From Sulfuriferula nivalis (GTDB lineage: Bacteria; Pseudomonadota; Gammaproteobacteria; Burkholderiales; Sulfuriferulaceae): a stretch of DNA of 64,000 nt. The stretch spans positions 868,001 through 932,000 of the forward strand of contig NZ_AP021881.1 of the NCBI RefSeq assembly GCF_009937995.1. The letters are read 5' to 3'. Under the pieces are notes generated by a model, which was not told where the DNA came from, did no database searches, and saw nothing but the letters and a program-made list of their open reading frames with translations. Positions 22,332-54,680 of this stretch are shown in pieces (positions within the stretch are counted from its first letter, which is position 1; every line of letters begins with the position of its first letter). A program made the position numbers and the translations under genes.

Positions 22332-22967
22332 CTATGAATGCAACAGCCAGACAGTTTCAGTTGATGGCAGACGACCTTTAAATCCACCTGCAACCTCACC
22401 GCTTTCGATAGATTTCACTTGATAAGTAGAACCATAATGCAGGTTTACTTCGTCTGCGTTAACTGAAAAAGGTGGGCCATCTGCCAGCTGCTGATCATAT
22501 TCATAAGTAATCAGCAATTGGGGTGCCGCTTTGGTGATCCCTATCAGGTGTGACGCATATCGCGCCCGCGTACCTGCAGGCAAGGCAACTAACGCAGCGC
22601 GATCATATATTGCGTTGACGGAACCCAGGTGTTCAGCGGTGACATCGAAAATATCCCCGACGAATATGGTTATATTTTCTGCACTGTAGTGGGTTAAATT
22701 CCCCACTTTGGCAATGTCTGGTGTCACTCCAAGTTCTTCAAACAATGCGTTAATGGCGAGTTCACTTAATTCCGCGCCAACAACCTGATAATCGTTGCCA
22801 AGCAGCCATGCTATATCCCGCGTCTTGCCACACAACGGCAGAAAGATGCGACTGCCCTGAGGCAGATTCAGTTTTGCTAAGTGTGCAGTGAGTAACGGAT
22901 TCGCCTCTCCAGTATGAAAACCGATTTCACCGCGTTCCCATTTTTGATGCCAAAAACTTGCTTCCAT
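22332..22967 (-). CDS. tpm: thiopurine S-methyltransferase
   Basis: A SAM-dependent methyltransferase of 211 residues, close to the 218 of Pseudomonas TPM. Signatures: FWHQKWERGEIGFH at the N-terminus, RIFLPLCGKTRDIAWLL (SAM-binding glycine loop of this family), and IYDRAALVALPAGTRARYA. Bacterial TPMs methylate thiopurines and have been linked to selenium and tellurium methylation. The ATG has a strong ribosome binding site (aaggag, 5 bases away). It is divergent from a MerR regulator, and its promoter overlaps a palindromic operator, so metal, metalloid or electrophile induction is likely. Confidence 0.95.
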   Translation of the reverse strand: MEASFWHQKWERGEIGFHTGEANPLLTAHLAKLNLPQGSRIFLPLCGKTRDIAWLLGNDYQVVGAELSELAINALFEELGVTPDIAKVGNLTHYSAENITIFVGDIFDVTAEHLGSVNAIYDRAALVALPAGTRARYASHLIGITKAAPQLLITYEYDQQLADGPPFSVNADEVNLHYGSTYQVKSIESGEVAGGFKGRLPSTETVWLLHS

Positions 22968-23051
22968 GTAAGCTCCTTAAAGGGTTTCAGATATAAATAA
23001 CATGACCACTACTTATTGTCCAAAGTGTTGAACATGGTCGTGTTATGAACT

Positions 23052-23082
23052 AGGATACAAGTTAAAGTCGACTTTAAGTCAA
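23052..23082 (-). promoter_or_regulatory. MerR-type tpm promoter with a 16-bp palindromic operator in a 19-bp spacer
   Basis: On the minus strand, reading toward tpm, there is a -35 TTGACT (23082-23077), a 19-bp spacer (23076-23058) and a -10 TATCCT (23057-23052). The spacer holds the perfect palindrome ttaaagtcgactttaa (23062-23077, overlapping one base of the -35). Overlong 19-20-bp spacers with a central dyad are the hallmark of promoters activated by DNA distortion by MerR proteins. The merR gene starts 25 bp away in the other direction. Confidence 0.82.
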
Positions 23083-23106
23083 GCATTAATTAATACAGGT
23101 GAAATT

Positions 23107-23532
23107 ATGGATATAGCCGAGGTCGCAAAGGCGACTGGATTAACTGCCGCTACCCTGCGGTTTTATGAAGAAAAAGGACTGATACAGTCAACTGGCAGGA
23201 AAGGTTTGCGTCGATTATTCAGCAGCAGCGTGACAGAGCGTCTGGCACTGATATCGCTGGGGCGCAGCGCCGGATTTTCGCTTGATGAGATAGCGGAAAT
23301 GTTTACACCAGAAGGGGTGAATATTAATAGAGCGCTACTTTTAGCCAAGGCAGATGAGTTGGACAGAAAAATCAAGGAACTGACCGCTATGCGTGAAGGA
23401 CTTCGCCATGCCGCCGTTTGCACAGCCCCCAACCATTTTGAATGCCCGAAATTTCTTCGTTTCCTGCGAGTGGCAGGTACAAATCGAATCAGGCAAACCA
23501 GCAAATTGAAAAGTGATGGAATTAAGAAATAG
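23107..23532 (+). CDS. MerR-family transcriptional regulator
   Basis: A 141-residue MerR protein. The N-terminal winged helix (IAEVAKATGLTAATLRFYEEKGLI) covers about residues 1-70, followed by a dimerisation helix. The C-terminal loop has Cys105 and Cys113 with a 7-residue spacing (AVCTAPNHFECPKF), plus His110. CueR uses two Cys at the same spacing to bind copper(I). Whether these bind metal here is inference. The tail (residues 120-141) is basic. It is divergent from tpm and its operator sits between the two genes, so it probably controls both. Confidence 0.9.
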   Translation: MDIAEVAKATGLTAATLRFYEEKGLIQSTGRKGLRRLFSSSVTERLALISLGRSAGFSLDEIAEMFTPEGVNINRALLLAKADELDRKIKELTAMREGLRHAAVCTAPNHFECPKFLRFLRVAGTNRIRQTSKLKSDGIKK

Positions 23533-23599: not shown

Positions 23600-24526
23600 T
23601 TACTCGCTTTCCACTTCCAGATAGGTTCGATTGGCATTGCCTCCGCTTAACAGCTGAAAGTTTTTCAAATAACTGTAAGCACTTTGATCTAGCGTATCGA
23701 CTGCCGTCTGTAAATCAACTCCATCGTCAATTGCCTTGCGCATATGATTGCGCAATAGCAACAGATAATCCCTGGTGTCATGTTGCGCGCGGGCAATATC
23801 GCATACTTGTCCATGTCCCGGTACGATTATCAGCGGCTGGAGTTTTTCAATTTCTGCGAATGAGGCTAGCCAATCCCTGGTATTGCTGAATGGCCATATT
23901 CCCAGCATGCGATCGACGAAAATCAGATCACCACTAAACAGGATGCGTTTGCTTGGCAACCAGACCACGTTATCACCTGGTGTGTGCCCGCCATAGAAAT
24001 ATAATATCTGTATATCCTCACCACCCAGCTTCAGCGTTTCCATCTTGTTTATCAAATGTGTAGGATAGGTCGCTCGCGTACCAGTAAATTTGTCTTTTAA
24101 CTCAGGCTGCAGTGCTGTCAGCTCCGCGGCACCTCGATCCTGCATATCTGCAAGCGCCTTACTGCTACTAATAATTTCTGCACCGATTTCCTTGAAATAG
24201 CTGTTACCCAACCAGCGATGGTCTTGTCCGCCAGTGTTGATCACGTACTTCACTGGCTGCGTCGTAATATGTTTAATTGCTTGGTGCATGGCTTTCGCCA
24301 CCAGATAACTTGAGCCGCTATCCACTACCACTACCCCTTGCGCAGTGACAATAAAACCCGCATTGGCATTCATGCCTGCGTTTTCATAAGTACGCATCCC
24401 GGTATCGCCGATGAATGCATAAACATTGGGTGCCACCTTTTGTGGCGTAAAGACAAACGCATTGGCAGTCCCAGTCAGGAACCACAACGCGATAACCAGC
24501 AGTAAAATAGTATGCTTAATTTTCAT
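23600..24526 (-). CDS. exported metallo-beta-lactamase-fold protein lacking HxH
   Basis: A 308-residue protein with a signal peptide (cleavage near residue 23, GTANA-F) and a metallo-beta-lactamase fold. At the position of the canonical HxHxDH motif it reads INTGGQDHRWLGN, so Thr98 and Gly100 replace the two His ligands. Asp102 and His103 remain, as do His181 (GGHTPGD), Asp200 (FSGDLIF) and His238 (VPGHGQV). It may bind one metal or act on a different substrate. The family includes the SoxH and quinoprotein-relay hydrolases of sulfur and methanol oxidisers. The start is the ATG at 24526; a TTG at 24532 is also possible. It converges with merR. Confidence 0.88.
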   Translation of the reverse strand: MKIKHTILLLVIALWFLTGTANAFVFTPQKVAPNVYAFIGDTGMRTYENAGMNANAGFIVTAQGVVVVDSGSSYLVAKAMHQAIKHITTQPVKYVINTGGQDHRWLGNSYFKEIGAEIISSSKALADMQDRGAAELTALQPELKDKFTGTRATYPTHLINKMETLKLGGEDIQILYFYGGHTPGDNVVWLPSKRILFSGDLIFVDRMLGIWPFSNTRDWLASFAEIEKLQPLIIVPGHGQVCDIARAQHDTRDYLLLLRNHMRKAIDDGVDLQTAVDTLDQSAYSYLKNFQLLSGGNANRTYLEVESE

Positions 24527-24678
24527 ACGCAATCTTTCTGTAATTTTGAAGTGCCCCTCACTTTATACTAAAAGCCAGTGAGTAATGGGTAGTGCAGAAC
24601 GAAATTTATCGTGATGTTATCAATCAGTTGTGCACTGAAAATGCTGCTTTTCTAGACCTGACCTCGAAGTGGCATTGC

Positions 24679-51977: not shown

Positions 51978-54680
51978 TTGGGGATACAGTCAAGTGCGCC
52001 TGATCAAGCCAATTGGCTGGAGTCACTCTATCAACAATACCTGCTTAATCCAGACTCGGTCAGTTCGGATTGGCAGGTTTATTTTAATAGTTTAAACGCA
52101 GTATCATTTAGTCCCAGTGTTACAGCATGTGACCGACGACAAGTCGATGTGCTCAGGTTAATCAATGCATACCGTTTCTTAGGTGTGCGTCTCGCGCAAT
52201 TAGATCCATTACAGCGCTATCCATTACCCAATATTCCCGAATTAGACCCCGCTTATTATGGTTTGACAGCCGCGGATATGGCAATGCAGTTTGATACTGG
52301 CTCTTTAGTCGCGTCAGATCGCGCTAGTTTGGCTGAGATTCTAGAGATATTGCAACGTACCTATTGTGGCAGTTTGGGCGTTGAATATATGTATATCAGC
52401 GACATTGTGCGTAAACGCTGGTTACAACAACGCTTAGAAGGTTGTCTGGCTACGCCGCATCTGGATACGGCTACGCAGCAAACTATATTGGAAGACTTAA
52501 CCACTGCGGAGACGCTGGAGCGTTTTCTTCATACACGTTACGTCGGACAAAAGCGATTTTCATTAGAAGGCGCCGAAACGCTAATTCCTATGTTGCAGCA
52601 GCTGATTTCGGGTGCGGCAGTGCATGGTGTTGAAGAGATTGTGCTGGGTATGGCGCATCGAGGCCGTATTAATGTGTTGGTTAATGTCTTGGGTAAGCCA
52701 TTAATGCAAATATTTGATAGTCACCATCAAGATGCTGCGGCTTTGTCAGGCGACGTGAAATACCATCAGGGTTTTTCTACAGATGTCATTACACCCAATG
52801 GTAATGTGCATCTGGCATTGACTTTCAATCCATCCCATTTGGAAATCGTTCATCCTGTTGTGCGTGGGTCCGTTCGTGCGCGTCAACAGCGTCGAGGTGA
52901 TGTGTTGGGCAATGAAGTGATGCCGGTGATTATTCATGGTGATGCGGCTTTCTCAGGGCAGGGCGTGGTGATGGAAAGCTTGAATATGTCCGAGACGCGT
53001 GGATATGATACTGGTGGAGCGGTTCATATCGTGATTAATAATCAAATTGGATTTACGACTTCTGACACACGGGACAGTCGTTCTTCATTATATTGTACCG
53101 ATGTGGCCAAACTGATAGAAATGCCAGTGTTACATGTAAATGGTGATGACCCAGAGGCAGCTATTCTTGCAGTGCAAATCGCACTCGACTATCGGCGAGA
53201 GTTTCATAAAAATATACTTATCGATTTGGTGTGTTTTCGTCGTCATGGTCACAATGAGCAGGATGAACCTGCAGTGACGCAGCCATTGATGTATCAGAAA
53301 ATAAATGCGCACTTGGGTGTGCGGCAATTGTATGCAGATAAATTGTTAGCAGCTGGTCTTGCACCTGAATTGCCAGCACAGTTGATAACTAACTACCGAG
53401 AACGGCTGGAAACTGAAGAACGCATAGTCGCACCCGCTGTATCGTTGTATAAGCGCAGCTATGCGGCGCATTGGGATTCTTATCGGCAACATGACTGGCG
53501 ATCCCCGGCCGATACAGCTGTATCGGCTAATCAATTGGAGGAATTTGGAGAGAAGATTACTGCTGTGCCTGATGGCTTCACTTTACATCCTCGAGTAGAA
53601 AAAGTGGTTGTGGATAGACGTGCGATGGCGCATGGTGAGCAACTGGTTGACTGGGGGATGGCGGAAAATTTGGCTTATGCCAGTTTGTTGCGTGATGGCT
53701 ATCCAATCCGGATTGCAGGTCAAGATAGTGGACGTGGCACATTTTTCCATAGGCATGCGGTATGGCACGATCAGCATCGGGAACGTTGGGATGCAGGGGA
53801 GTATCTCCCGTTGCAGCACATTTACCCCAATCAACCTCATTTTATAGTGATAGATACGCTGTTATCCGAGTTGGCTGTGCTGGCCTTTGAATATGGTTAC
53901 GCCAGCGCTGAGCCAGATGAACTGGTGATTTGGGAAGCGCAGTTTGGCGATTTTGCTAACGGTGCTCAGGTGGTAATAGATCAGTTTATTGCGAGTGGTG
54001 AAGCTAAGTGGGGGCGCTTATGTGGACTGACCTTGTTGTTGCCCCATGGGCAAGAGGGGCAGGGGCCAGAACATTCATCTGCCCGGTTAGAGCGTTATCT
54101 GCAATTGTGTGCGAACGATAATATACAAGTATGTCAGCCCAGTAATGCAGGGCAAATGTTTCATTTGCTACGACGACAAATGCTACGGCCTTATCGTAAA
54201 CCATTGATAGTGATGACGCCAAAAAGCTTGCTACGCGCCAAGCAGGCTAATGTACCGTTGGCTGCGTTAACAGATGGCGGCTTTGCAGCACTGATAGGTG
54301 AAACTCAAACGTTAGCTGATGTGCGGCGCATCGTTTTATGTAGTGGTAAAGTCTATTATGACTTGTTGGCCGGTCGTGAACAGCGTGGAATTAATGATGT
54401 TGCATTGGTACGGATTGAACAGCTTTATCCATTTCCACGTGTAGAGTTATCTGCATTACTGGCGGATTATGCTGTCGGTGTCGAGGTTGTCTGGGTACAA
54501 GAAGAGCCGCAAAATCAGGGCGCCTGGTTTGCGATCCAGCATCACATTCTGGCTTGTTTGCATCTTAATCAGACATTGCGTTATATCGGGCGAGATTTTT
54601 CTGCATCGCCTGCAGTGGGTTATCCCGATGTATATGAAGCACAAAAGCAAGCGTTTATCGAAGAGGTATTTGTTGCATGA
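51978..54680 (+). CDS. sucA: 2-oxoglutarate dehydrogenase E1 component
   Basis: The thiamine diphosphate-dependent E1 of the 2-oxoglutarate dehydrogenase complex. 900 residues, slightly short of E. coli SucA (about 933). The N-terminal segment [22 protein letters not shown] binds E2 in this class. [20 protein letters not shown] and [12 protein letters not shown] are the thiamine diphosphate-binding and active-site parts. The start is a TTG at 51978, supported by a ribosome binding site (cgagga) 6 bases upstream that overlaps the gltA stop; no ATG is close. It overlaps sucB by 4 bp. Confidence 0.96.

Follow-up and report, generated by a model that had tools for sequence, protein, structure and literature searches.

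A MerR-type regulator and a conserved operator point to an inducible switch for thiopurine methyltransferase in Sulfuriferula nivalis

Introduction

Bacterial tpm genes are known for the methylation of thiopurines and of selenium and tellurium, and full-text searches of the literature found no paper on a dedicated tpm regulator. A 64-kb stretch of the Sulfuriferula nivalis genome, called the window here, carries a tpm gene back to back with a gene for a small MerR-family protein. In CueR and SoxR, two members of this family, ligand-dependent DNA distortion and activation are established. The locus raises the question of whether tpm is governed by a local switch of this type and, if so, which class of compound would operate it.

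Results

The tpm gene (22332-22967, minus strand) encodes a 211-aa thiopurine/Se/Te S-methyltransferase. Its product scored 257.1 bits against TIGR03840, the NCBIfam equivalog for bacterial TPMT (cut-off 223.2), matched Pfam TPMT at 3.6e-60 and the bacterial TPMT structure PDB 1pjz at 4e-41, and had thiol methyltransferases among its distant PDB matches. The divergent gene, 139 bp away (23107-23532, plus strand), encodes a predicted MerR-family activator of 141 aa. It matched Pfam MerR_1 (helix-turn-helix) and MerR-DNA-bind, and together with an AlphaFold2 model these matches outline a SoxR-like wing and a CX7C loop (C105/C113). The divergent regulator-tpm pair is thus real, with both genes confirmed by Pfam and NCBIfam profile matches. 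Adjoining the regulator, a minus-strand gene (23600-24532) encodes a metallo-beta-lactamase-fold hydrolase related to quinoprotein-relay zinc metallohydrolases; its score of 176 bits does not reach that group's cut-off of 280.

All elements of the textbook MerR-activated geometry that had been predicted on the tpm side were located. On the minus strand, a −35 element TTGACT (23082-23077), whose TTGAC is invariant in the 94 related loci described below, is followed by a 19-bp spacer (23076-23058) and a −10 element TATCCT (23057-23052), of which A2 and T6 are conserved. A perfect 16-bp palindrome, TTAAAGTCGACTTTAA (23062-23077, unstranded), sits within the spacer and touches the −35 element; its family-wide conservation marks it as the putative operator core. 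The locus thereby combines the marks of an over-spaced MerR activator, namely a winged helix-turn-helix, a MerR-DNA-bind dimer helix and a palindrome in a spacer of 19-20 bp. When the 139-bp gap was shuffled with its dinucleotides kept, 0.37% of the shuffles held so long a palindrome; this figure and the conservation together rule out a chance palindrome. The window holds two perfect palindromes of at least 16 bp, the other being a 20-bp one, GCCGATACAGCTGTATCGGC, at 53508-53527.

A scan around the gap found no promoter-like sites with the normal 16-18-bp spacing. Reading by eye suggested a possible conventional promoter for the regulator, TTGAAC-17-TAGGAT (23028-23056, plus strand), which has 8 of 12 consensus bases and lies under the promoter-scan threshold. 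This candidate overlaps the tpm −10 element, so that the regulator might limit its own expression. No other match to the operator pattern was found in the 64-kb window with up to three mismatches allowed, or in the 3.4-Mb genome with up to two. The single genomic operator indicates that the regulator has one target, and a multi-operator regulon in the S. nivalis genome was rejected on the same scan.

Conservation was examined with an alignment of regulator relatives, which gave 80 loci when run against 84,980 species genomes; plasmid records, class genomes and L189, a pair found via its tpm gene, brought the set to 94 distinct loci. These belong to Pseudomonadota, Cyanobacteriota, Chloroflexota, Myxococcota, Actinomycetota, Acidobacteriota and Bacteroidota. 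The promoter-operator lay upstream of the regulator and was directed at the divergent gene in all 94, with a spacer of 19 bp throughout. The pattern TTGACYTCAAGTYGACTTGAAGT-N3-YANNNT is nearly invariant, the full consensus being C TTGAC(C/T) TCAAGT YG ACTTGA AGT N G (C/T)A NNN T. Positions 1-5, 7, 9-11, 16, 17, 20 and 27 are invariant, and within the −10 element A at position 2 is conserved in 100% and T at position 6 in 98% of loci. The family half-site, CCTCAAGT, is that of the E. coli soxS promoter as read from MG1655; the window operator carries the variant CTTAAAGT. A lack of operator conservation in relatives with the regulator-tpm pair had been named beforehand as an outcome that would refute the original prediction, and the operator was kept in 21 of 21 such pairs. 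With 20 of 24 positions as the minimum for an operator copy, we found none near 19 same-branch tpm genes without the regulator, none beside 30 ordinary tpm loci of the class (best match 19), and none beside the tpm of a congener, G014. At L039, the region upstream of position 1501 has another MerR-family gene and a different 16-bp palindrome, CTGTAGTCGACTACAG, adjoining TTGACT; the difference indicates that the operator studied here is subfamily-specific.

The regulator protein resembles both CueR and SoxR, and plain membership of either was rejected. CueR (TIGR02044) was its top-scoring NCBIfam model and its top PDB sequence match, at 70.1 bits against a cut-off of 147.4, a miss by a factor of two; SoxR (TIGR01950) gave 56.6 bits against 116.9, and the [2Fe-2S] motif CX2CXCX5C of SoxR was present in 0 of 94 regulators. 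Both loop cysteines were found in all 94 relatives and the CX7C spacing in 93, within a loop consensus CxAPSHxEC that has a nearly invariant histidine. The original comparison with CueR accordingly stood for the cysteine spacing, whereas the protein as a whole falls far under the CueR cut-off (70 versus 147 bits). The DNA-binding domain aligned better to SoxR than to CueR in 83 of the 94 regulators; that of the window regulator aligned slightly better to CueR (121 versus 109 for SoxR). The AlphaFold2 model (pLDDT 86) had its best PDB fold matches in SoxR (top), CadR and CueR. No second close CueR/SoxR-type regulator is present in the S. nivalis genome. The linkage to copper efflux genes that is a trait of CueR was not seen: a simple motif scan, run without a positive control, found no P-type ATPase or HMA-type cysteine motif in the ORFs flanking 93 regulators, and the single genomic operator lies at tpm.

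The genes driven by the switch differ widely. Pfam and NCBIfam scans of representatives, with six gene starts corrected by hand, assigned the divergent target in 93 loci as a UbiE-like SAM methyltransferase in 36, DUF2938 in 27, TPM in 20 (21 with L189), a TehB-like SAM methyltransferase in 5, an MFS exporter in 2, TauE/SafE in 2 and another gene in 1; these partner counts are not an unbiased census, because the relatives were found by regulator similarity. A SAM methyltransferase of one of three families is directly driven in 61 of the 93. Beyond what the original prediction could see from the window, tpm is one of several exchangeable targets, most of the others being different methyltransferases or membrane proteins. 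DUF2938 is often the second gene of the same operon after a UbiE-like methyltransferase, and TauE/SafE lies behind tpm in one operon in the Nitrotoga, Calothrix and Methylomonas loci, whereas in Pseudanabaena and Methylotenera the operator faces TauE/SafE directly. Since 27 DUF2938, 2 MFS and 2 TauE targets are not methyltransferases, the targets may have something other than methylation in common.

The UbiE-like version occurs in myxobacteria, Streptomyces and Lysobacter. PDB matches of its enzyme were generic methyltransferases only; by general resemblance the enzyme may be a relative of MmtA. If so, the three kinds of methyltransferase on the switch would correspond to TPMT, TehB and MmtA. 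Bacterial selenium and tellurium methyltransferases reported so far include TPM (TPMT), TehB and MmtA (PMC11422209; PMC10382350). The module recalls tehAB in that a SAM methyltransferase is paired with a membrane protein and a TehB-like enzyme replaces TPM at five loci; it differs in that TPM belongs to another methyltransferase family and the TehB-like representative, at 31-40 bits, lies well below the TehB equivalog cut-offs of 218-303. Three Pseudoalteromonas plasmid records (L198, L199, L200) carry a LysR-family gene divergent from tpm, so that modules of this kind also occur with a regulator from outside the MerR family. In L198 and L200, DUF2938 is directly upstream of tpm in one operon, an independent link between DUF2938 and TPM.

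The pair is rare. None of 17 congeners has a regulator ortholog. Among 369 genomes of the class, nine true regulator relatives were found, the window's included, and tpm was found in 153; regulator and tpm lie side by side only in the window and in G385. The predicted departure from the usual solitary tpm was thus borne out, an adjacent regulator being present in only 2 of 153 tpm-bearing genomes of the class. An unbiased sample of the phylum gave 17 genomes with a tpm of the window's branch, two with the full pair and one with an orphan operator. A regulator tree of 93 rows and 127 columns, in which few forks are well supported, groups the loci with TPM, TehB-like or TauE targets away from those with UbiE-like or DUF2938 targets, and the target label changes 17 times versus 47.6 in shuffles. 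The nearest relatives of the window regulator, among which methanotrophs are prominent, come from Methylomicrobium, Methylobacter, Methylovulum, Nitrotoga and a Calothrix plasmid, a set that suggests horizontal spread.

Although the window enzyme passes the cut-off of the Pseudomonas-type model TIGR03840, it lies in a branch separate from that usual, solitary tpm. All regulator-linked TPMs fall in one branch apart from the ordinary tpm of the class, mixed with unlinked copies. A private clade of linked TPMs, suggested by a first tree, was rejected, as unlinked TPMs of the unbiased sample interleave with them. The window TPM belongs to a well supported set of 11 (96%), of which nine are linked and two, in G014 and G024, have no regulator. 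G024, of the same order, keeps tpm and 22 of 24 operator positions (L050, G024:C1, about 2130-2290), and the regulator is absent after ATGGATATG. Its similarity to the window ends just past the regulator start codon (ATGGATATG...), which indicates that the regulator was lost there; G024 is thus a putative natural regulator loss that left an orphan operator. G014, of the same genus, has a tpm of 75% identity with window-like flanks and has neither operator nor regulator (L049, G014:C18, upstream of 1501), so that the regulated state differs within the genus.

Discussion

A divergent gene pair, over-spaced promoter geometry, an operator, paired cysteines, a single genomic site and exchangeable targets can be read directly from the DNA and its translations, and from these we propose the following mechanism. 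A resting regulator dimer on the palindrome between the over-spaced −35 and −10 elements would keep the tpm promoter nearly silent. The two cysteines of the CX7C loop would bind a thiophilic inducer, and the liganded dimer would twist the 19-bp spacer so that RNA polymerase transcribes tpm. TPM would then use SAM to S-, Se- or Te-methylate the toxicant or a reduced metabolite, giving a product that would be less toxic and often volatile or exportable. Activation by ligand-dependent DNA distortion is proposed here by analogy with CueR, SoxR and MerR, and the enzyme family suggests that TPM would act on thiol, selenol or tellurium species. We regard a local MerR-type activator switch for a methylation defence, working in this way, as probable. 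The inducible methylation defence of the original prediction appears well supported by the MerR-type promoter before tpm and by the operator in 21 of 21 pairs; the locus is most likely a switch with a single target, by which the methylation and export of some thiol- or chalcogen-type toxicant would be induced. Family resemblance would place the inducer among Cu(I)/Ag(I), chalcogens and thiol-reactive electrophiles and likewise guides the choice of physiological substrate; for the inducer, our first guess is Cu(I) or some other thiophilic compound.

The regulator shares with CueR the MerR-family fold and a CX7C loop followed by proline and, by analogy, would share the over-spaced promoter mechanism. 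It departs from CueR in its shorter wing region, in the conserved loop histidine of CxAPSHxEC, which is missing from the CueR loop, and in belonging to a family with a SoxR-like half-site and with tpm and other detoxification genes, not copA, as targets. With SoxR it shares the family half-site, the 19-bp spaced promoter, a gap-free alignment of the DNA-binding domain and a single divergent target (soxS for SoxR, tpm here), whereas it has a CX7C loop instead of the iron-sulfur cysteines and an enzyme, not a second regulator, as its target. Judged by sequence, these regulators form a MerR subfamily, hitherto uncharacterised, in which one operator serves exchangeable, putative detoxification cargo.

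These mixed features leave room for other signals. The regulator could be a functional CueR analogue that binds Cu(I), Ag(I) or Au(I), with tpm, DUF2938 and flavodoxin as copper-stress accessories and not a chalcogen response, which we hold to be possible though doubtful. The CX7C spacing and the rank of CueR among NCBIfam models and PDB sequence matches speak for it, and in the A. pittii mutant CAB009 only six genes fall (PMC7296048 Table 3), four of which are copA with its HMA partner and an adjacent pair of DUF2938 and flavodoxin genes; in A. baumannii L061 (1851-2919) the regulator is divergent from a pair of that kind, DUF2938 and a flavodoxin-family gene. That correlation, however, is single and post hoc and compares strains without added copper, and no further support for the DUF2938-flavodoxin operon was found in published A. 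baumannii copper papers. The missed cut-off also tells against a CueR analogue, as does the motif scan of the flanks of 93 relatives, which, without a positive control, gave no P-type ATPase or copper-chaperone-like pattern. It is somewhat unlikely in our judgement that the regulator works in the manner of SoxR and senses natural products that are redox-active or electrophilic, such as dithiol, quinone and phenazine antibiotics, which the methyltransferases, MFS proteins and DUF2938 would inactivate or export. The soxS-type half-site, the 83 DNA-binding domains nearer to SoxR and the top fold match point that way, as do the antibiotic-producing hosts of the UbiE-like version and the MFS exporters that are sometimes targets; but a common operator means a common reading of DNA, not a common signal, the iron-sulfur motif is absent throughout, and the SoxR cut-off was missed (57 versus 117 bits).

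We consider it improbable that the switch responds to sulfide, to persulfide or to a surplus of thiol, with TPM and TauE/SafE as an outlet for the methylation and export of sulfur metabolites. TauE/SafE is co-operonic with tpm in three genera and the target itself in two, and thiol methyltransferases are among the distant structural matches of the window TPM, yet no more than 5 of the 93 loci have TauE/SafE, which is absent from the window and has broad substrates. That tpm and the regulator are chance neighbours around an incidental palindrome has a negligible likelihood: a same-genus tpm with neither regulator nor operator lies in a partly syntenic position and tpm is mostly a solitary gene, but 94 loci from different phyla keep the operator and 21 of them hold the pair, and this conservation refutes it. 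Methanotrophs, it may be added, are known to make methylated selenium volatiles, in strains other than the carriers of the pair (PMC5554269).

Since in its relatives the switch drives other methyltransferases or membrane proteins, it may be a general on-switch for a methylate-and/or-export defence. We tentatively suggest, as a conceivable reading somewhat short of an even chance, that this MerR subfamily is distinct, though as yet without a name, and joins a reading head of the SoxR type to a CueR-like CX4HX2C sensor loop. It would act as a mobile on-switch, having time and again acquired different chalcogen/thiol methyltransferases (TPM, UbiE/MmtA-like, TehB-like) and partner membrane proteins (DUF2938, TauE/SafE). 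If true, several phyla would share an inducible regulon for S/Se/Te methylation, in which DUF2938 would take part; we found no paper that pairs DUF2938 with MerR, and this would be its first functional context. Should the inducer be a chalcogen or Cu(I), the switch would be a ready-made biosensor part. With one operator sequence and exchangeable cargo, the switch lends itself to reporter tests of what naturally induces it and hence of what bacterial TPM is for physiologically.
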